A stretch of 40,046 nucleotides of DNA, taken from positions 1 through 40,046 of the forward strand of contig JAAYTA010000014.1 in the NCBI GenBank assembly GCA_012518185.1, given 5' to 3'. The notes beneath the pieces were generated by a model, which was given only the letters and a program-made list of their open reading frames with translations, was not told the origin of the DNA and made no database searches. Origin of the DNA: Methanobacteriota archaeon (lineage in GTDB: Archaea; Thermoplasmatota; Thermoplasmata; Methanomassiliicoccales; Methanomassiliicoccaceae). Of this stretch, positions 2,198-17,362 are shown piece after piece. The position numbers and the translations under genes are program-made. The number at the start of each line of letters is the position of its first letter. The first letter of the stretch is position 1.

Positions 2198-5100
2198 TTA
2201 ACTTCTCATCCAGTACTCGCTAGGTACTCGCACCTCTACTCCATGCTCGTATTTATCTAATCTTAACATAATACGATCACAAGTAGAGCGAAGTTTCTTC
2301 CATAATATAGATGAAGAATAATGTTCAAAATCAGCAGGCATACTATTTAGGAGATTTCTAGAACAAACTACTATGAGACGCTCTTGAGCTCTTGAGAATA
2401 TGACATTAGTACGATTGAGATCTAGTATAAATTCAGCATTGTTGCCTATAGTCGATATATCACTTTGTGTTCCCGAGACTATTATATTCTCACATTCTCC
2501 GCCCTGAATGCGCTCTACAGTATCTATCATCCGTATATTTGCTTCAATGGCACCCAATTCCTCCTTTAAAAGGCCCCTTTGGGCTCGATGAGGAGTAATA
2601 ATCGATATATGCTCAGGATCAACGCTGTCTTCACTCACCTCTCTCGACATTATTATGTCTTTTATGAGCTGTACTTCAAATGAGTTACTTTTACGGGAGA
2701 GCGATTCGTCATGAATAACCAGATACACTCCAGGCAATTTCCACAAATCACTAAATGATCTTATCATTCCATCTTTTTGCACAGATTCTTTATTGGATGT
2801 CAGTATTATTCCTTCTTTATTATATACAGGAGATATTAGATTGGTTAACTCTGGAGTCAGGCGATAAGTTATTGATAATGCCGATTGCCTGATAGCTCCT
2901 TCTGGAGATAGCTCAATCAACCTCCTCATCGCTTCATAAGCTGAATTGTGAGGGCACATCCTGACGATCTGCTCTCTTGTTTCCTTATCCCAATTATGAG
3001 AAGTTATAGGAGATAATTGCATATGATCTCCAGCCAATAAAATTTCCCCATCTTCAGCAATTAATGTAGATAATGCTAGAAACTCAGGAAATATCATCAT
3101 CGATGCCTCATCAATCACTAAACCATCAGCACGTGAAGTGCCCCGTGGCCATCCATATCGTTCAAATATATCTCCCAATCTTAGGAGATCATTCACGGTT
3201 CCACATACAATTACGTTGCCGTCCATCAATTTATCATTGATAATTGAGATATCGTCAGAAGATATTTCATATGGTTTCAATGGCTCTCTTTTTATTCTTA
3301 ATACTGACGCTGAGGCAACATCGACGCCTGCTTCCTTAGCTGCCATGTTGAATTCGGGGATAATTTGACGAATCCGTCCGCATAATTCATCTACTGCTGT
3401 ATGTGTAGTAGCTGATAATAGGAATAATTTATGACCTGGCCGTGCTATTAGCCGGAGCAATATCGCCGCTGAGGCAGTATTAGTCTTACCGGTCCCAGGA
3501 GGTCCCAGTATCAGTTGAATTGTTGATTCCAAACCTTCAAGACATGCTTCTATCTGAACGTCATCTAGAGAAGACTGCCTCAATCGCACGTTTTTCAATA
3601 ATTGTCTATACTCATCTTTACGCTTTGCTGAAGAAGGTTCCCAAATAGGAATAGAGGGAGACTCTGTGTCGAACCAGGCGATCAAAGGAGCATTCCTATT
3701 CGCATCTAGCCAGCGATCTACTCTATCACGCACATATGCTGATTTTGACTCTCCAGCCAATGCGAATGGTATAGATTTACTTTCAGGAGGTAAAGATCTC
3801 AGTATGTAACCTGATCCAGAGCTCCTATTGCTATATGGTATGACTTCTCCCTTGAATATATTTTTGTAAGCATCAAACTCTGTCACTGTAACTGTGATAC
3901 CTTCCTGTAGAGTCTGATATGCAGTAGGTCCGTACTCTATATCTCCTCCATATGGGGAAATACGCATCATCCCCAGATCTAGTCCGCACATTGATAAGAA
4001 TGATTTACTCTCTATCCCAAATCGATCAAGGTCAATATCTGCACTGAATAGAGTCCTTCTTCCTTCTATTCTGAAACGGACGTTTCGAAGAGGTATGCAG
4101 ACTCCATCAGCAACTCTTGCTGCGGGAGATCTTGATAGATCAGTTAACCACTCTCTCTTACTATAGTGATGATCTAAACGCATAAAGTCCTGACATGCCG
4201 TCACTAGATCATAGCGGTTGTTGAAGTGTGATTCTATGTTCTTTAGATCATATATTGGAACTATGGGCTTCTCTAAACCCTGATTTTTGACATTAAATTT
4301 CTCCTCTAACCATCGGAGTGCCTCACACTTGGCCATGAGAAATGTCTTGATAAGGCTTGGAGTTCCGCCCCGTCTATAATCGACTAGAGCTCTTCGAAGT
4401 ACATTATCTTCCCACTCACCTTTATCGGGAAGGACTCCCCACATCGCATACCAATATGGCATAGGTATACCAGAGCGGAATCTAGCGCGTACTTCCATAT
4501 AACGACGTTGAGTATCCAGAGAATGTTTTCTCCTAGGCACCCATTTCCCATTCTCATCGATATATAGATACGATCGGTTGTCGAATAAATCACGCTTGAA
4601 TGCGTAAGTTAAGTCGACAGAATTTTCCTCGACAACTCGATGCCAATGAAACTTTTTTCCATACCATCGCACACTTGCTGCTAATGGTAAGCTGAATGAA
4701 GTGAACCCTAAGGCCTTGCTCTTGGAGATTTCATCACTAATGGATGTGTATATTAATTGCTCGAGGTCTCCTTGACATTTTTCTCGACATCCTAGTAGTT
4801 CGGTCAAACTACGTAAAGAGGATCTACCTATGCGTGAACAGGACTCAACAAGGAGGGTTATTTCTCTAGGTGACCATACATAGAAATGGACTGGTCTAAA
4901 ATCATCTCCGTTAGCGATAGCCATCATCGCTTTGCTAAGGCCGGTGATAAATGATTGGATCATCTCTCCTTCTAGCTCATCATCCTTATCGATGTCACCG
5001 CTCCATTTATTCTCTATAATCCTTATGATATATTTACAATTCACTAGTTTTTCAGCCCCTTCCGCTCCTTCCACAGGTGCCGGAAAGGGGACGCCGTCCT

Positions 5101-6307
5101 CTTTGATTGTAGAAATATTTTGATCACTATCTGTTAAGTGAGCAGACAGGCCAATTAGGCGATCTTCAATATGATCATATTCTACAGATAAGTAGATCCT
5201 TATTGTGCGAAGACCTTCTCTATTCTGATGGGCAGGCAGAGTGCTAACGCCGTGACGCCGTAAATCTATAACTTCATAATCACTATCACGCTTATAGGGC
5301 ATGGTGGAACGTCTGGCCTTGGCTCGCTTCACCAGATCATTTAGGTCAATATTGAAAGTAGGGGAATTTCGCATCGACGAAGCTTTCGAAGATGATGGAT
5401 CAAGTTCTGACAGTGCTAATATGTCCTCCACACCTTCTTTCTGAATAGCCTGTGTCGTAACAGGATCAAGGCCTAGTAATTCTAAACGTGCAGCCTTCTC
5501 ACTCTCGGGCATGCATATTGTGTCGTATGCGCAACTGTCACATTTCTCATCTAAACAGTAGCTCAAATCATCAAGAGGAGTAGCATCAATAATTTCGACT
5601 GGACCATTAGGTGCGAGTAGATGAATCACATCATCTATCTCTTCACAAAGATCTAATGGCGGTATATCTAAAGGATCCTGAATACAACAATTATCTCCAT
5701 CTATTCGTACTACAGCTGCCTCTAATATAATATTCTCATAGATTTTATTTGATATTACTAGAGGGGACTTTTGAAGCTGCTCATCTACTATCAATTTATA
5801 GGCAGCTAACTGGATGCGATGGTATGTTTTATCCTTTCTACTAGCTTTACATTCCACGATCCTCAATATTGGGAGATCATCATTCCATGTTAGTATTAAA
5901 AAATCCATCTTACTAGTTACATAGAAATTTCCTATTTGTAGGCTGATTTTGACCTCTCTAGCAAAACACTCCTCTCCCTCACTTAGTGTTTGAAAAGCAG
6001 ATAATGCCTCTGTCCAGTTTATCTCATCTTTATTATCATTATTAACTTCCTTAGATGGATTGATACACTGCATCCGACGTGAGAGTAATTCCTCGACTTC
6101 ATTCTCCCTTAGCTCACCTGACATTATGAGAACTGGATCTAACGTTCCACCTATAGTTTGCCGATATGGAAACATTTGATCTAGTGCTTTGGAATCTTTC
6201 CTTAAGATCAATCTAAGTTTCATGTTGCGATCGCAACAATTTTTATCAACATAATCTCCTAGGTCAGTGACATTAATAACTAATGCTCTCTCATTTCGAT
6301 CAATCAT
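2198..6307 (-). CDS. RecB-like nuclease fused to UPF1/DNA2-type SF1 helicase
   Basis: Very large protein (1369 aa from ATG 6307, 1377 aa from an upstream TTG at 6331). The N-terminal part carries a PD-(D/E)XK nuclease core: an Asp in KMDFLIL, then VECKA, then QLAAYKL (the QxxxY motif of RecB/Cas4-type nucleases). It is followed by a Cys cluster (CLDEKCDSC then CMPE within 18 residues) that may bind Fe-S, and by a helix-hairpin-like segment (LGLDPVTTQ). The middle region (IYLSVEYDHIEDRLIG) resembles the RNase-H-like module of TM0106-type nucleases. The C-terminus is an SF1 helicase: Walker A GPPGTGKT, Walker B DEASM, GDHMQLSPI, ERIQGGECE and NVIFSRAQERL. A role in DNA end processing or repair, or defence against foreign DNA, is inferred. 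It heads a two-gene unit with DUF1294. Confidence 0.85.
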   Translation of the reverse strand: MIDRNERALVINVTDLGDYVDKNCCDRNMKLRLILRKDSKALDQMFPYRQTIGGTLDPVLIMSGELRENEVEELLSRRMQCINPSKEVNNDNKDEINWTEALSAFQTLSEGEECFAREVKISLQIGNFYVTSKMDFLILTWNDDLPILRIVECKASRKDKTYHRIQLAAYKLIVDEQLQKSPLVISNKIYENIILEAAVVRIDGDNCCIQDPLDIPPLDLCEEIDDVIHLLAPNGPVEIIDATPLDDLSYCLDEKCDSCAYDTICMPESEKAARLELLGLDPVTTQAIQKEGVEDILALSELDPSSSKASSMRNSPTFNIDLNDLVKRAKARRSTMPYKRDSDYEVIDLRRHGVSTLPAHQNREGLRTIRIYLSVEYDHIEDRLIGLSAHLTDSDQNISTIKEDGVPFPAPVEGAEGAEKLVNCKYIIRIIENKWSGDIDKDDELEGEMIQSFITGLSKAMMAIANGDDFRPVHFYVWSPREITLLVESCSRIGRSSLRSLTELLGCREKCQGDLEQLIYTSISDEISKSKALGFTSFSLPLAASVRWYGKKFHWHRVVEENSVDLTYAFKRDLFDNRSYLYIDENGKWVPRRKHSLDTQRRYMEVRARFRSGIPMPYWYAMWGVLPDKGEWEDNVLRRALVDYRRGGTPSLIKTFLMAKCEALRWLEEKFNVKNQGLEKPIVPIYDLKNIESHFNNRYDLVTACQDFMRLDHHYSKREWLTDLSRSPAARVADGVCIPLRNVRFRIEGRRTLFSADIDLDRFGIESKSFLSMCGLDLGMMRISPYGGDIEYGPTAYQTLQEGITVTVTEFDAYKNIFKGEVIPYSNRSSGSGYILRSLPPESKSIPFALAGESKSAYVRDRVDRWLDANRNAPLIAWFDTESPSIPIWEPSSAKRKDEYRQLLKNVRLRQSSLDDVQIEACLEGLESTIQLILGPPGTGKTNTASAAILLRLIARPGHKLFLLSATTHTAVDELCGRIRQIIPEFNMAAKEAGVDVASASVLRIKREPLKPYEISSDDISIINDKLMDGNVIVCGTVNDLLRLGDIFERYGWPRGTSRADGLVIDEASMMIFPEFLALSTLIAEDGEILLAGDHMQLSPITSHNWDKETREQIVRMCPHNSAYEAMRRLIELSPEGAIRQSALSITYRLTPELTNLISPVYNKEGIILTSNKESVQKDGMIRSFSDLWKLPGVYLVIHDESLSRKSNSFEVQLIKDIIMSREVSEDSVDPEHISIITPHRAQRGLLKEELGAIEANIRMIDTVERIQGGECENIIVSGTQSDISTIGNNAEFILDLNRTNVIFSRAQERLIVVCSRNLLNSMPADFEHYSSSILWKKLRSTCDRIMLRLDKYEHGVEVRVPSEYWMRS

Positions 6308-6361
6308 ATCTTCAGCCCGTACATGTACCAATCTCTATCTTGGCGATGATCAGACGGGTTG

Positions 6362-6374
6362 ATATTTAATATAA
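6362..6374 (-). promoter_or_regulatory. Putative TATA promoter of the nuclease-helicase gene
   Basis: Read on the minus strand this is an AT-rich stretch, TTATATTAAATATC-like, placed about 30 to 60 nt before the candidate TTG and ATG starts. It would give a transcript starting near 6340 with a short leader. The placement is inferred by eye and no transcript data exist. Confidence 0.45.
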
Positions 6375-6386
6375 ATTATGTTAGTT

Positions 6387-6408
6387 CATATTATGTGAAT
6401 ATAATATG
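6387..6408. repeat. Perfect inverted repeat upstream of the helicase promoter
   Basis: Arms CATATTAT (6387-6394) and ATAATATG (6401-6408) are exact reverse complements around a 6-nt spacer. The element lies just upstream of the helicase TATA box, as expected for a dimeric regulator site. AT-richness raises the chance of coincidence, so the operator role is only a hypothesis. Confidence 0.45.
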
Positions 6409-6489
6409 CTCTAGTCGCATCACATACGGTACATTCATGATATTTGTGTGTTTTCTAATGAGCCATTAGTGTTACATTGATCTAATGTG

Positions 6490-6528
6490 TAATGTTTCAA
6501 CTATCTTCAATCAATATAGTTTACATTA
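6490..6528. repeat. Interrupted inverted repeat / hairpin
   Basis: TAATGT (6490-6495) and AACTAT (6499-6504) pair with ATAGTT (6516-6521) and ACATTA (6523-6528), twelve pairs with a small asymmetric bulge and an 11-nt loop. Shorter inverted repeats lie just before it (CTAATG-AGC-CATTAG at 6455-6469). It sits in the 0.8 kb gap, just upstream of a TATA-like stretch at 6539-6547. The function is unknown. Confidence 0.4.
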
Positions 6529-7092
6529 TTTAATAGTAAATTTATATGCAACAATCGGAGCTAATAGAGCGTAGGCGTCCTTAATACTGACAGAACTCTA
6601 AGAACATCTTACTTTCATCTAAAAGAGTCCTAGAATTGTATTGGCCATATTCTCCAGAATACTCTCGATATGCTGAATACTATTGTAATATTCTGATTAG
6701 CTTAGAAAACGACAGCAGTATTAGATTTAGTGTGCTTATCTGATAAATTTGTTCATGATAGTAGGGATAGGATTTATTGCAGCGGCGAGAATATATGATT
6801 TAACATTCAAATAAGAAGAACATCACATTTCGATACTAGTAAATTAACTGTCTGAGAGTAATGCTTGCCGAATGAGATACTTATCTTCTGGAAAATTGAT
6901 TAAGCGATGCAAAATTCATTAATGAAAACATCACTAACGAGTCACTTGAAATATTAGAGGCTGGGTAATGATTTCTCTAGTAAATGAGAGCCTATATAGA
7001 ACTTATAATCATACTATTATTTATCTTAGCTAGGAGTTGAAACATTAAGTATGCCGACCCAATATCGGTTGGACTACGCTAGCGAACAATAG

Positions 7093-7537: not shown

Positions 7538-8760
7538 TGAAGATCAGCCAGCAGCCTGAAATCAATATAGGCATGATCGGTCATGTCGACCATGGTAAAA
7601 CTACGCTCACCAAGGCATTAAGTGGAGAGTGGACAGATCGTCATTCCGAGGAGATCAAGAGAGGTATCTCCATCAGGCTGGGCTATGCTGATGCTGCATT
7701 CTACAAGTGTAACGATTGTGACAAATACACTAACTCACCCGCCTGCCCTGATTGTGGGGGAGATGCAAAATTTATTAGGGCTATATCTTTGGTCGATGCT
7801 CCAGGACACGAAACTCTGATGGCTACTATGTTATCGGGGGCAGCTATGATGCAAGGAGCACTGCTTCTAATCGCAGCCAACGAACCCTGTCCTCAGCCAC
7901 AGACAGAAGAACACCTAATGGCGTTATCCATAATAGGTGTGGACAAGATCATAATAGTACAGAATAAGGTTGATATCGTCACTAAAGAAGAGGCCATGGA
8001 AAACTATCAGGATATCAAGAAATTTGTAAAGGGAACTATAGCAGAAGATGCTCCCATAATTCCTGTATCAGCACACCATGACGTTAACATAGACAAACTC
8101 ATTGAGACGATAGAGACTCATATACCAACTAATAGATCCGCTGCTAAGAAGGATCCACGAATGTTCGTTGCACGCTCATTTGATATCAACACCCCCGGCT
8201 CGGGCCCAACTTCCTTAAAAGGAGGCGTACTAGGCGGATCTCTTACTCAAGGTACTCTAGAGGTAGGTGATGAGATAGAGATACTACCTGGGCGAAGAAC
8301 CGAAGTAGGAGGTAAAGTGAGTTATGAACGCATAACGACTACCATTTCATCACTGCATAGTGGAAATATACCTCTAGATAAGGCTCTCCCCGGAGGCCTC
8401 ATGGCGATAGGAACTAAACTAGATCCTTCGCTAACTAAGTCTGATGGCGTAACTGGACGTGTAATTGGTAAGCCAGGTACTTTACCTCCAGTATTGCATA
8501 AATTTATCATGACCACTCACCTGTTGGATAGAGTAGTTGGGACTACAGAGGACTTAATCGTAGAAAACATCAAAACTAATGAACCATTGATGCTCAGCAT
8601 TGGTACTGCTACCACGGTAGGCATAGTCACTTCAGCTCGGGGTGATGAATCAGAGGTAGCGTTAAAGATCCCAGTCTGCGCCGACATTGGACAAAGAGTT
8701 GCTATATCTAGGCGCATATCTGGTAAATGGCGCCTGATCGGATACGGTATCATTGAGTAG
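7537..8760 (+). CDS. eif2g: Translation initiation factor aIF2 subunit gamma
   Basis: GTPase subunit of aIF2, which delivers initiator Met-tRNA to the small ribosomal subunit. The G1 motif [10 protein letters not shown] is near residue 15. An inserted zinc ribbon (CNDCDKY then CPDCGG) near residues 60-77 is typical of the gamma subunit. DAPGHE (G3), QNKVD (G4) and the beta-barrel domains II-III follow; the length of 407 aa is normal. The gene starts within the S6e stop (TAATG), with GAGGAGAG just upstream as SD. It ends TAG six bases before the PIN gene. Alpha and beta subunits are not in the window. Confidence 0.97.
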
Positions 8761-8766
8761 ATACTC

Positions 8767-9120
8767 ATGTCGGTTGTCGTTCTCGACACCAACGCACTCC
8801 TCTTACCCTTTGAGCGATCAATTAATCTAGATTCTCAATTACAATCCCTACTAGGGAATTGTGAAATTTTGATCCCAGGGCCCCTAATTGGGGAGCTAAA
8901 GCGCTCATCGAGCAAATATGCTCGTGCTGCCATAGAACTTGCCTTTCGATATACTGTAGTTGATACAGAGGCGACTGGCGACCAATCAGTCATTGAACTA
9001 GCTGAAAAGCATAATGCCTATGTAGTCACTAATGATCGCGCACTCATTTCTCGTCTAAGGAAGAGGAGAATTAGAGTTATACTATTGCGCGGTAGAAGTC
9101 ATCTTGATTTTGACTTCTAG
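8767..9120 (+). CDS. PIN-domain protein (archaeal Fcf1/VapC9-like)
   Basis: A 117-residue single PIN domain. VVLDTNALL carries the first metal-binding Asp (D7), GELKRS gives the conserved Glu, and VVTNDRALISRLRKR gives the C-terminal acidic residues. A PIN protein directly after S6e and aIF2-gamma is a recurrent archaeal arrangement and points to a housekeeping RNase, perhaps in rRNA processing, rather than a toxin; no antitoxin gene is adjacent. It ends in a CTAG that also contains the stop of the convergent DUF2099 gene. The RNA target is unknown. Confidence 0.9.
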   Translation: MSVVVLDTNALLLPFERSINLDSQLQSLLGNCEILIPGPLIGELKRSSSKYARAAIELAFRYTVVDTEATGDQSVIELAEKHNAYVVTNDRALISRLRKRRIRVILLRGRSHLDFDF

Positions 9121-14311: not shown

Positions 14312-15082
14312 TCATTTAGTACTTCGCCTACCAAATACTAAATATCCAGTATGGCCAAGAGTATCATAGGATGGCCTCACTCCTCCTGGATGCACTTCAA
14401 TAAATCGCTGAATATTCTCTAATGCCCTAGTTTCTTTGTATCCCCGCTCGCGAAGCCCCTTCATTAGATCGATGACTTGATTAGCATTTGGAACGTATCC
14501 AGCGAAACGGCCTCCAGGACGTAAGAATCTAGTTACATTGTCGAGTGCATTCCATGGATCAGGCATATCTAACGCTACAGCATCTACCATTTCATCCAAA
14601 TCATAATCCTTGATATCTCCAAATTGTAGCTCCCACATAGCTTCCAATCCTGACCGCTCGACATTCCTACGAGCTTTTTTAGCAAATTCCTCTCTAAGTT
14701 CAATAGTGAAAACCTTCCCTGAGGGAGCAATGGAGTGTAGGAGAGCAATTGTCAAGGCTCCAGATCCTACTCCAGCTTCTAGAACCCTGTCACCAGCTTT
14801 AAGATCCAAGTGGAGTAGAATGGTGGCAGCGTCTTTAGCAGTGATTATCTGGGGACCTCGTTCTACTGAATCTATTTGCTCTATAAGGCCCCCCCTGAAT
14901 ATAAAAAATTCACGTCCTGCTATATCAAGGGAAGAACCATCTTCTTGTCCGATTAGCCGAGCACCATCTATAATCCCGAGCCCTTTCACCCTTATCATGT
15001 CGTTTTGGATATTGAACCAATATCGCCTTCCTCGGTCGTCCAATATGTAAACAGAATCTCCAACGCCAAGCATGATGCTCAT
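14312..15082 (-). CDS. trmI: tRNA (adenine-N1)-methyltransferase TrmI
   Basis: SAM-dependent enzyme making m1A in the T-loop of tRNA (positions 57/58 in archaea). A small N-terminal beta domain (LGVGDSVYILDDRGRRYWF) precedes the Rossmann domain with SAM motif LEAGVGSGALT, then ALDMPDPW and a GYVPNANQV strand; RGPQIITAKDAA is also typical. The frame is open to a TTG at 15142 and an ATG at 15136, but alignment with archaeal TrmI, which begins with the GDxV...DxRG strand, favours ATG 15082 or 15073, and the TATA box near 15150 is too close for the upstream starts. The start is therefore uncertain. Confidence 0.9.
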   Translation of the reverse strand: MSIMLGVGDSVYILDDRGRRYWFNIQNDMIRVKGLGIIDGARLIGQEDGSSLDIAGREFFIFRGGLIEQIDSVERGPQIITAKDAATILLHLDLKAGDRVLEAGVGSGALTIALLHSIAPSGKVFTIELREEFAKKARRNVERSGLEAMWELQFGDIKDYDLDEMVDAVALDMPDPWNALDNVTRFLRPGGRFAGYVPNANQVIDLMKGLRERGYKETRALENIQRFIEVHPGGVRPSYDTLGHTGYLVFGRRSTK

Positions 15083-15146
15083 ATGCTTAAAATCGTTGAA
15101 AAGGGTTTGTCTTGCTAGAGTCTGATAATTTATCATGAGCAAAAAG

Positions 15147-15179: not shown

Positions 15180-15383
15180 ATGGCAGACAAACCTGTCAAT
15201 CTACCCATTAAGATATTGTCCATTCTATTAATCATAGGAGGTATCCTATTATACATCGGCTGGGGCGCCTATTACAATAGCTGGAACATGTTCGCTCCTG
15301 AATACATACCCATCTATGGATTAACAGTCATAATGATCCTTTTTGGCGTCTTAGGATTGGCACTTACTCGCCTTAAGGACTAA
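15180..15383 (+). CDS. Small two-TM membrane protein, unknown function
   Basis: A 67-residue protein with two hydrophobic helices (ILSILLIIGGILLYIGW and the IPIYGLTVIMILFGVLGLAL region) joined by a short aromatic-rich loop, and a short charged tail (TRLKD). I do not recognise a family. The TATA-like box 28 nt before its ATG and coding-like composition support it as real. The stop at 15381-15383 is followed 38 nt later by the RNase III-like gene; co-transcription is possible, but the latter has its own AT-rich box. Confidence 0.65.
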   Translation: MADKPVNLPIKILSILLIIGGILLYIGWGAYYNSWNMFAPEYIPIYGLTVIMILFGVLGLALTRLKD

Positions 15384-15421
15384 GACAAACCATTTATTTC
15401 CTAATTATATCATTATCTTGA

Positions 15422-15916
15422 ATGGTCGATTCTGCAATACTAACTAAAGCTAGTAGGCTGGAGGCTCGTATAAGCTACCGCTTCAATGATATACGACTCT
15501 TGAGAGATGCAATAGTTCTAAAGGGCTTTGAGAATGAGGTTGATAATGCATTTCGAAAAGGGATCCGGAAGTATGATATCAGCATCTTAGCAAATCTGGG
15601 AGATACAGTTATCGATCTTCTGGCCACTGAATACCTGATACTTAAACATGATATTGAGAATACGGGAGAGGTAACTGAAAGGCGGCAGCGCATGGTATGT
15701 CGTAATCGTCTAACACGTCTCGGACACAATTTCCAACTCGATAAATATCTGACTATGAGTGATGGAGAGCGTAGAGATATCTACAGGAGTGCTATGCTAG
15801 GAGAGGCTGTAGAGTCTCTAATTGGTGCTGTATATCTAGACGTCGCTGATAATGACTCAGGTCTGGATGATGCACGTAATGTACTAACTCAAATGGACTT
15901 CTTCTCAGAGGATTGA
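15422..15916 (+). CDS. RNase III-domain protein with altered active site
   Basis: A 164-residue single RNase III domain without a dsRNA-binding domain. SYRFNDIRLLRDAI, LANLGDTVIDLLATEYLI, RNRLTRLGHNFQLDKYL and GEAVESLIGAVYLD align along the whole family core. Of the E. coli metal-site residues, D45 and E117 correspond to D61 and E131, and D114 to E128, but E38 and E41 correspond to Ser and Ala. A LA-xLGD signature instead of ExLExLGD is also seen in bacterial Mini-III, so the enzyme may still be active on structured RNA. RNase III domains are uncommon in archaea. The gene ends five bases from convergent proS. Substrate unknown. Confidence 0.82.
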   Translation: MVDSAILTKASRLEARISYRFNDIRLLRDAIVLKGFENEVDNAFRKGIRKYDISILANLGDTVIDLLATEYLILKHDIENTGEVTERRQRMVCRNRLTRLGHNFQLDKYLTMSDGERRDIYRSAMLGEAVESLIGAVYLDVADNDSGLDDARNVLTQMDFFSED

Positions 15917-15921
15917 TGAAT

Positions 15922-17319
15922 CTACATCGCTCGAGCAGCATAAACTACTATATTCGTATCTTTACCACAAGCAAGGCACTTTCCGTCAAACTCTTCCTTA
16001 TCATAAGGCGAACCAAGGATCTTGATGTCGGCGGCTTCCTCTATCTCCTTCCCACACTCCTCCGTCCCACACCACCCAAATCTTAACCATTTTTCTGGTA
16101 TGTTATCTAGTGAATCGATAGTAGTTATCGATGAATCCATGCGCTCCCTAGCTTTATCTCGCATATCATCAGAGATTACAGCAAGTAATGTACTCACAGA
16201 CTCAGCCACATTCTTCCGGGAGAACGTTCCCTTCTCACTAATATCTCGACGAGCATACGATACTACTTCATTGGCGATATCTCTACCTCCCAATTCCAAT
16301 CGTAGTGGCACTCCTTTCAGCTCCCATTTATAGAATTTAGCGCCTGGGCGCTCATCGCTATCATCTACTTGTACTCGTATACCGGCGGCCTTCAGATCAT
16401 CGGCAAGGTGGCGAGCGCTCTCCAATATCTCCTCCAGATTGCCCTTTGCAATTATAGGAACAATAATCGCCTGGATTGGTGCAATATCTGGTGGAAGAAC
16501 TAATCCCTTATCGTCTCCATGCACTCCTACAACCGCTCCAATTAATCTTTCACTCATTCCAAAGGTTGTTTGATGAACATATTTCTGATTGCCTTCGACA
16601 TCCTCATACTTGATATCAAACGGTCTCGAAAAATTCTCCCTATAATGATGAATAGACCCTAATTGGAGGCTACGGCCTGATGGCATATATGTGTCAATTC
16701 CTACCGTATAATATGCTCCAGGGAACTTGTCCCATTCAGTACGACATAATAATAAGTAAGGTAAGGCCAAGCGCTTCATAATATTCTCTAGAATCACAAA
16801 ATCTTCTTCGATTTGTCCCTGCGCGTCGGATTCACTCTCATGGCAGGTATGAGATTCGAAGAAATGGATTTCCCTTACTCTTATGAATGACCTAGTCTGC
16901 TTAGTCTCATACCGGAAAGTATTGACCAACTGATATACTTTTAATGGAAGATCTCCGTGAGAGCGTATCCACAATGAAAACATGGGATACATAGCGGTCT
17001 CAGATGTAGGTCGCAGCAACAGGCGAATATCTAACTCATTCAATCCGGCGTGGGTAACCCAGTATACCTCAGCATCAAATCCCTTAATATGATCCTTTTC
17101 CTTCTTGAACTCGGTCTCTGGGATAAGGAGAGGAAAACACACTTCATCATGGCCAGTAGCGTCCAATTCTTCTCGTATAAATGTGTCAATATGGCGCATC
17201 ACTTTCCAGCCATATGCTGGCCAAACATTCATCCCTTTGACGGGATATCGTTTATCAGTAAGGCCCGCCTGCTCAACTATTTCATTATACCATTCGCTGA
17301 AATTCTCTTCCTTCTTCAT
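15922..17319 (-). CDS. proS: Prolyl-tRNA synthetase (archaeal/eukaryotic type)
   Basis: Class II synthetase charging tRNA-Pro. Visible are motif 1 (MRHIDTFIREEL), LLRPTSETAMYPMF, motif 2 (NTFRYETKQTRSFIRVREIHFFE), the HQTTFGMSERLIGAVVGVHGDDKGL motif 3 region in pieces, the anticodon-binding domain (VDDSDERPGAKFYKWELKGVP) and the C-terminal zinc-type domain (CGTEECGKEIEE and CLACGK). It lacks the bacterial editing insertion. Length is about 466 aa. GTG 17328, ATG 17325 and ATG 17319 are all in frame; 17319 is chosen because AGTGATG lies just before it. The C-terminus ends TAG, convergent with the RNase III-like gene. Confidence 0.96.
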   Translation of the reverse strand: MKKEENFSEWYNEIVEQAGLTDKRYPVKGMNVWPAYGWKVMRHIDTFIREELDATGHDEVCFPLLIPETEFKKEKDHIKGFDAEVYWVTHAGLNELDIRLLLRPTSETAMYPMFSLWIRSHGDLPLKVYQLVNTFRYETKQTRSFIRVREIHFFESHTCHESESDAQGQIEEDFVILENIMKRLALPYLLLCRTEWDKFPGAYYTVGIDTYMPSGRSLQLGSIHHYRENFSRPFDIKYEDVEGNQKYVHQTTFGMSERLIGAVVGVHGDDKGLVLPPDIAPIQAIIVPIIAKGNLEEILESARHLADDLKAAGIRVQVDDSDERPGAKFYKWELKGVPLRLELGGRDIANEVVSYARRDISEKGTFSRKNVAESVSTLLAVISDDMRDKARERMDSSITTIDSLDNIPEKWLRFGWCGTEECGKEIEEAADIKILGSPYDKEEFDGKCLACGKDTNIVVYAARAM

Positions 17320-17362
17320 ATGCATCACTAATAAGAATGAGCAGTCATAACTCCCTAACTAT

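Follow-up and report, generated by a model that had tools for sequence, protein, structure and literature searches.

Ribonuclease III (RNase III) is an enzyme behind rRNA processing and RNA interference, and its textbook active site is made of four acids. The four acids are kept in the RNase IIIb domain of Dicer and Drosha, which is one of two domains in these large eukaryotic proteins. In the E. coli complex (PDB 7R97), MgA is held by E41 and E117 and MgB by D45 and E117, and D114 makes no direct metal contact (PMC9291653), while in the Entamoeba RNase III the equivalent of D114 does bind a metal (PMC5357909). Taken together, these contacts place D114 beside the metal of E41. The E. coli mutants E41A and D114A are described as weakly active and E117K/A/Q as inactive (PMC8708148, Table 1). 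Mini-III of B. subtilis (PDB 4oun, 6tnn) contains the motifs LALAYIGD and STAFEALLG, corresponding to Ala41, Asp45, Thr114 and Glu117 in E. coli numbering, and has an additional helix, alpha5b, where other RNase III proteins have the alpha5-alpha6 loop (PMC4357697).

One review states that no RNase III has been found in archaea. Our search of the open-licence literature found no paper on archaeal RNase III or on RNase III in Methanomassiliicoccales or Methanomassiliicoccus, and for RNase III together with Thermoplasmatota it returned one CRISPR classification. Here we describe a genuine variant of RNase III from an archaeon that is conserved yet dispensable, and that probably works as an active enzyme whose metal site has been rewired.

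A lone RNase III domain in Methanomassiliicoccaceae

The window, that is, the whole stretch of DNA analysed (40,046 nt, contig JAAYTA010000014.1 of assembly GCA_012518185.1), contains an intact open reading frame (ORF) for a protein of 164 residues (Table 1). The protein matched PF00636 with E = 3.6e-17 and 63.5 bits against a cut-off of 27, and PF14622 with 59.9 bits against a cut-off of 35, the two matches together spanning residues 26-141, whereas it missed the equivalog cut-off of TIGR02191 (76.6 versus 166.25 bits). The Pfam search gave no dsRNA-binding domain (dsrm), and the chain stops 24 residues past the PF00636 match. The AlphaFold2 model, built as a single chain with six sequences as input, had a pLDDT of 86.9 and a pTM of 0.87, and its closest structural matches were RNase III domains, among them those of human Dicer at Z 19.3, of Campylobacter at Z 18.5 and of E. 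coli at Z 17.9, the last with an rmsd of 2.2 for 142 residues. The profile scores and the fold thus agree with the initial annotation, which had aligned the whole domain with RNase III, left the profile search as a check and noted the lack of a dsRNA-binding domain.

Orthologues occur in the same gene order in related genomes and are under purifying selection (dN/dS 0.13-0.31 among relatives), so the ORF is not a chance one. Its own genome, at 95.7% completeness, contains no other match to PF00636. The third-position G+C of the gene is 0.36, against 0.69-0.80 in two relatives of the same genus (G009, G011), a strong shift in base composition.

Table 1 Positions of the genes and active-site codons discussed in the text (window coordinates unless a locus is given)
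Feature	Position	Strand	Basis or remark
Gene of the 164-aa RNase III-like protein (lone domain, no dsRNA-binding domain)	15422..15916	+	ORF (ATG 15422, stop 15914-15916), Pfam, fold
Ser54 codon, E. coli E38 position	15581..15583	+	alignment
Ala57 codon, E. coli E41 position (MgA ligand in PDB 7R97, PMC9291653)	15590..15592	+	alignment
Asp61 codon, E. coli D45 position, kept	15602..15604	+	invariant in alignment A1
Glu116 codon, E. coli E100 position, kept	15767..15769	+	invariant in alignment A1
Glu128 codon, E. coli D114 position, now Glu	15803..15805	+	invariant in alignment A1
Glu131 codon, E. coli E117 position, kept	15812..15814	+	9/10 rows of alignment A1
67-aa small hydrophobic protein, probably membrane, 38 bases upstream of RNase III gene	15180..15383	+	no Pfam match
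tRNA methyltransferase, GCD14/TrmI kind, conserved neighbour	14312..15142	-	PF08704, 8.9e-32
Prolyl-tRNA synthetase (ProRS), convergent, 5 bases from RNase III gene	15922..17328	-	PF00587, PF03129, PF09180
1377-aa protein, PD-(D/E)XK nuclease part and SF1 helicase part	2198..6331	-	
Tandem RNase III protein	L079:4826-5740	+	two RNase III domains by Pfam
Tandem RNase III protein, 319-aa frame	L080	-	two RNase III domains by Pfam

Active-site residues

In the alignment to E. coli RNase III, E38, E41, D45 and E65 correspond to S54, A57, D61 and T81 of the window protein, and E100, D114 and E117 correspond to E116, E128 and E131. The residue table of the initial annotation (E38 to Ser, E41 to Ala, D45 and E117 kept, D114 to Glu) is therefore right. 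The protein reads SILANLGD where the orthodox signature is ERLEFLGD, with E38 and E41, and both core acids of the superfamily, D45 and E117, are present as D61 and E131. Conservation was read from an alignment of ten relatives with a mean column identity of 53% (A1).

The protein resembles and departs from the described systems as follows. First, it shares with orthodox class I RNase III (E. coli Rnc, Campylobacter 3o2r) the whole nuclease domain including the N-terminal helices, the residues D45, E100 and E117, and a close fold (Z 17.9-18.5), but lacks E38, E41, E65 and the dsRNA-binding domain and has Glu for D114. Second, the RNase IIIb domains of Drosha and Dicer gave the top-scoring profile match and fold (4e-32 and Z 19.3, respectively), yet these proteins carry two domains per chain whereas the window protein has one domain in 164 residues. 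Third, single-domain canonical RNase III proteins of the same order (group f5) fall in the same length class with no extra domain seen, but keep ERLEFLGD and, in most cases, D114. At last, the Mini-III-type site proposed in the initial annotation stood only in part: the lone domain without a dsRNA-binding domain and the residues Ala41, Asp45 and Glu117 are common to both, but Mini-III has a shorter N-terminus and Thr at position 114 (4oun, 6tnn, 1u61) instead of Glu, and the family profile matched orthodox RNase III (3o2r, 2e-25) far better than Mini-III (4oun, 6e-4 over a partial stretch). On these two grounds, residue 114 and the profile, we rejected identity with Mini-III. The model contains a short helix at 114-119.

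The loss of E38, E41 and E65 would also suit a catalytically inactive relative of RNase III with a role in dsRNA binding or as a structural part, like the domain of mitoribosomal mL44. Mitoribosomal large-subunit chains, which we take to be mL44, did match the model (Z about 15 to 16.8), but their identity to the protein is just 12-14%, and the mL44 endonuclease family PF22935 gave no match at E up to 10. Furthermore, D61, E116 and E128 are invariant and E131 nearly so in A1, which argues against a dead protein; we consider this reading unlikely. Copies that are probably dead do exist nearby, since a second RNase III-like paralogue (L062-L065), found in genus group g4 of the same family, has Glu or Gln for D45. 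This paralogue has a dN/dS of 0.15-0.35 and is probably catalytically inactive by its residues.

Selection and gene loss

Between intact copies, dN/dS was 0.13-0.31 where synonymous sites were unsaturated; both pairs that include the window gene were saturated. Nevertheless, no fewer than four close relatives (G010, G012, G018, G020) have lost the gene or retain it in truncated or decayed form. In G010, G013 and G020, the 67-aa gene and the ProRS gene lie 100-350 bases apart with no relative between them at E < 0.1, and G013 has a diverged paralogue elsewhere instead (L018). G018 retains a 23-residue scrap at the expected place and on the expected strand (E 0.043), G012 encodes only residues 121-164, and in G016 the gene is split over two frames, perhaps through a sequencing error. 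More than 1.5 kb separates the flanking genes of G014 and of G015, with no relative between them. From the dN/dS values and the losses within the family, the gene is selected but dispensable.

This patchy record, with a truncated copy in G012, a split one in G016, a brief remnant in G018 and nothing that matches in G010 or G020, could also be that of a horizontally acquired RNase III decaying towards loss, and a 2015 review reports acquisition of RNase III by some mesophilic euryarchaea (PMC4571572). The dN/dS of the intact copies, the retention of the catalytic acids and a gene order kept across two genus groups speak against such a relic, and we regard it as quite improbable.

rRNA processing stems

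The initial annotation had suggested that the protein might process rRNA. With search patterns written from the very sequences compared, all seven full-length loci of the family showed both arms of the 23S processing stem, and all nine family loci showed the two arms of the 16S stem, with and without the gene (present in G009, G011, G017 and G022; cut in G012; absent in G010, G014, G015 and G020). In G018, where the assembly splits the rRNA genes into pieces, one arm each of the 16S and 23S stems was found, and the rRNA genes of the protein's own genome were not found in its assembly. Since the stems are alike with or without the gene and relatives have lost it, a role in rRNA maturation is unsupported, and the gene is unlikely to be needed for making ribosomes. 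The same comparison counts against a Mini-III-like enzyme that trims 23S rRNA, a reading suggested by the lone domain and the Ala41, Asp45 and Glu117 residues; with residue 114 and the profile also against it, we hold it to be very improbable.

By eye, the 23S stem contains a loop that could represent a 3-4-3 bulge-helix-bulge if one G-A mismatch is allowed; in the 16S stem, an AAA bulge adjoins four pairs. The splicing endonuclease is regarded as the enzyme that cuts the rRNA stems of archaea (PMC8339473), and two papers show Thermoplasmata without such motifs (PMC7038931, PMC8339473). The 23S rRNA gene of G012 (L174) has 3310 bases against about 2920 in relatives, probably owing to an insert of ~390 bases.

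Genomic neighbourhood

The order of the TrmI, 67-aa protein, RNase III and ProRS genes is kept in two genus groups of the family, and family genomes that have lost RNase III still carry the 67-aa gene at its usual site. The neighbourhoods of relatives elsewhere had no partner gene in common. The relative in G001 (L114) is adjoined by a PIN-domain nuclease and an exosome Csl4-like subunit (6205-6666, 8184-8771), and the relatives in G244 and G254 lie next to genes for NYN-domain proteins. The region 15340-15480 folded no better than its shuffled versions (z -0.90), giving no sign of a self-cleaved leader hairpin as in E. coli rnc.

PADLOC gave no match to a defence system for the window protein, and in a check of phage origin the best PHROG match was to a family of unknown function (4.3e-15). 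Elsewhere in the window, the 1377-aa protein with nuclease and helicase parts has a PADLOC match to MkoA that is restricted to part of the helicase region. A host RNase III could also serve a type II CRISPR-Cas9 system by processing tracrRNA, and Cas9 models scored over the cut-off in eight genomes out of the 147 in the order. The protein's own family, with 15 genomes, contributed none of these eight, though, and its own genome had just a 35-bit partial match; this absence refutes a Cas9 partner for that genome, short of one encoded in the 4% that the assembly lacks, and makes the reading barely credible. The matches to TIGR01865 over the cut-off were full length in G075, G086, G124, G112, G117 and G038 and partial in G047 and G030, and six of the eight exceeded 800 bits across the whole model.

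RNase III layouts across the order

PF00636 was found in 93 of the 147 genomes of the order Methanomassiliicoccales (92 over the cut-off), in contrast to the statement of the review mentioned above, and with the window protein as the query a relative was found in 52 of the 147. Most of the 97 frames collected encode fewer than 210 residues; the statement of the initial annotation that single-domain RNase III proteins are rare in archaea thus does not hold here. By Pfam, seven of the eight long proteins of group f6 that were scanned were over the dsrm cut-off and the eighth was not, and the layout of an RNase III domain with a dsRNA-binding domain also occurs in L075. Two proteins (L079 and L080) carry two RNase III domains in one ORF, laid out as in Dicer or Drosha but archaeal. 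The first of these tandem domains has E41, D45, D114 and E117, and the second has Ala41, Asp45, Glu114 and Lys117. A scan of named genomes with the single window protein gave no match, while a profile scan gave six loci, including Methanomassiliicoccus sp. UBA386, UBA6 and UBA345. Another of the six, L087, is labelled Dehalococcoidia and encodes a protein with E41 and Ala114, not one of the swapped type.

Coupled loss of E41 and gain of Glu114

Among 97 archaeal RNase III domains, a count that includes one protein labelled bacterial (L087) and omits two with a gap at position 114 (L138, L020_8), Glu114 occurred in 0 of the 53 rows with E41 and in 27 of the 44 rows without it (Fisher p 9e-13, with related rows treated as independent). 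The E41 rows had Asp (44), Gly (6) or one each of Ala, Ser and Thr at this position; besides the 27 Glu, the E41-lost rows had Thr in seven cases and otherwise Gly, Lys, Gln, Leu, Met, Pro or Asp. Among the E41-lost rows without Glu114, two are unsound, L020_6 being a fragment and L167_21 misaligned, and the fraction becomes 27/42 when both are removed. Since 17 of the 44 E41-lost rows are without Glu114, the swap is not obligatory. The Mini-III combination of Ala41 and Thr114 accounts for seven of the 97 rows. Of 46 E41-lost rows, 42 retain the Asp of D45 and 39 retain the Glu of E117 (three of the other seven being gaps), as expected if catalysis is kept. Glu114 was likewise found in 0 of a further 28 proteins with E41 from another class of the phylum (L189-L216, group f48). 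These single-domain proteins all have Asn for D114 together with E41 (28/28).

The pair of changes probably arose more than once. AU tests rejected a single clade of all Glu114 rows (p 2e-40) and a single clade of all E41-lost rows (p 0.001), with the caveats that the groups were named after seeing a first tree, which the AU test does not allow for, and that support for deep branches is weak. The tree for these tests was built without columns 38, 41, 114 and 117, after thinning E41 rows at >55% identity and other rows at >80% identity and leaving out 12 named rows (three long-branched, two other fast-evolving, six partial, duplicate or misaligned, and Mini-III), so that 65 rows were left. Glu114 is found in the clade of the window protein, in the clade of L151, L153 and L155, in L130, and in the second domain of the tandem proteins. 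When the coupling was examined through independent pairs, one pair lay on starred branches, too few for a test.

Discussion

We lean towards the reading that the window protein is an accessory dsRNA endonuclease, a single-domain dimer without a dsRNA-binding domain in which Glu128 makes up for the lost E41. Single RNase III domains of this kind would pair as a dimer. The active site would then consist of three core carboxylates instead of four, Asp61, Glu128 and Glu131, with Glu116 (E100) nearby. Glu128, one methylene longer than the usual Asp, could reach the metal of E41 (MgA in 7R97) and so compensate for Ala57; metal binding by Glu128 and RNA cleavage are what we infer from this arrangement. 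The proposal would explain why Glu114 is absent from proteins with E41, as a Glu at this position would crowd an occupied site. By the activities of the E. coli mutants, the residues kept in the window protein are those that matter most, and the weak activity of E41A implies that the activity of the protein may be low. The loss of E65 and E38 counts against this reading, and the gene loss, truncation and decay in G010, G012, G018 and G020 also fit a protein of little use. The likely use of such an enzyme would be the processing or decay of structured or antisense RNA rather than obligate rRNA maturation.

A wider proposal, which we put forward tentatively and hold somewhat short of even, is that Ala41/Glu114 represents a second working layout of the RNase III metal site, in which the ligand has shifted from helix position 41 to 114. 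This layout would have evolved repeatedly in the phylum and, in the tandem proteins of one genus group, would be joined to a canonical domain in a prokaryotic pseudo-dimer arranged like Dicer and Drosha.

One archaeal order thus holds several RNase III layouts: with a dsRNA-binding domain, single, swapped and tandem. As the splicing endonuclease is regarded as the enzyme for the rRNA stems, these proteins raise the question of which dsRNA archaea cut. An active Ala41/Glu114 site would show that the textbook site of four acids is open to rewiring, and the abundance of natural variants would supply a set on which to examine the role of each acid.
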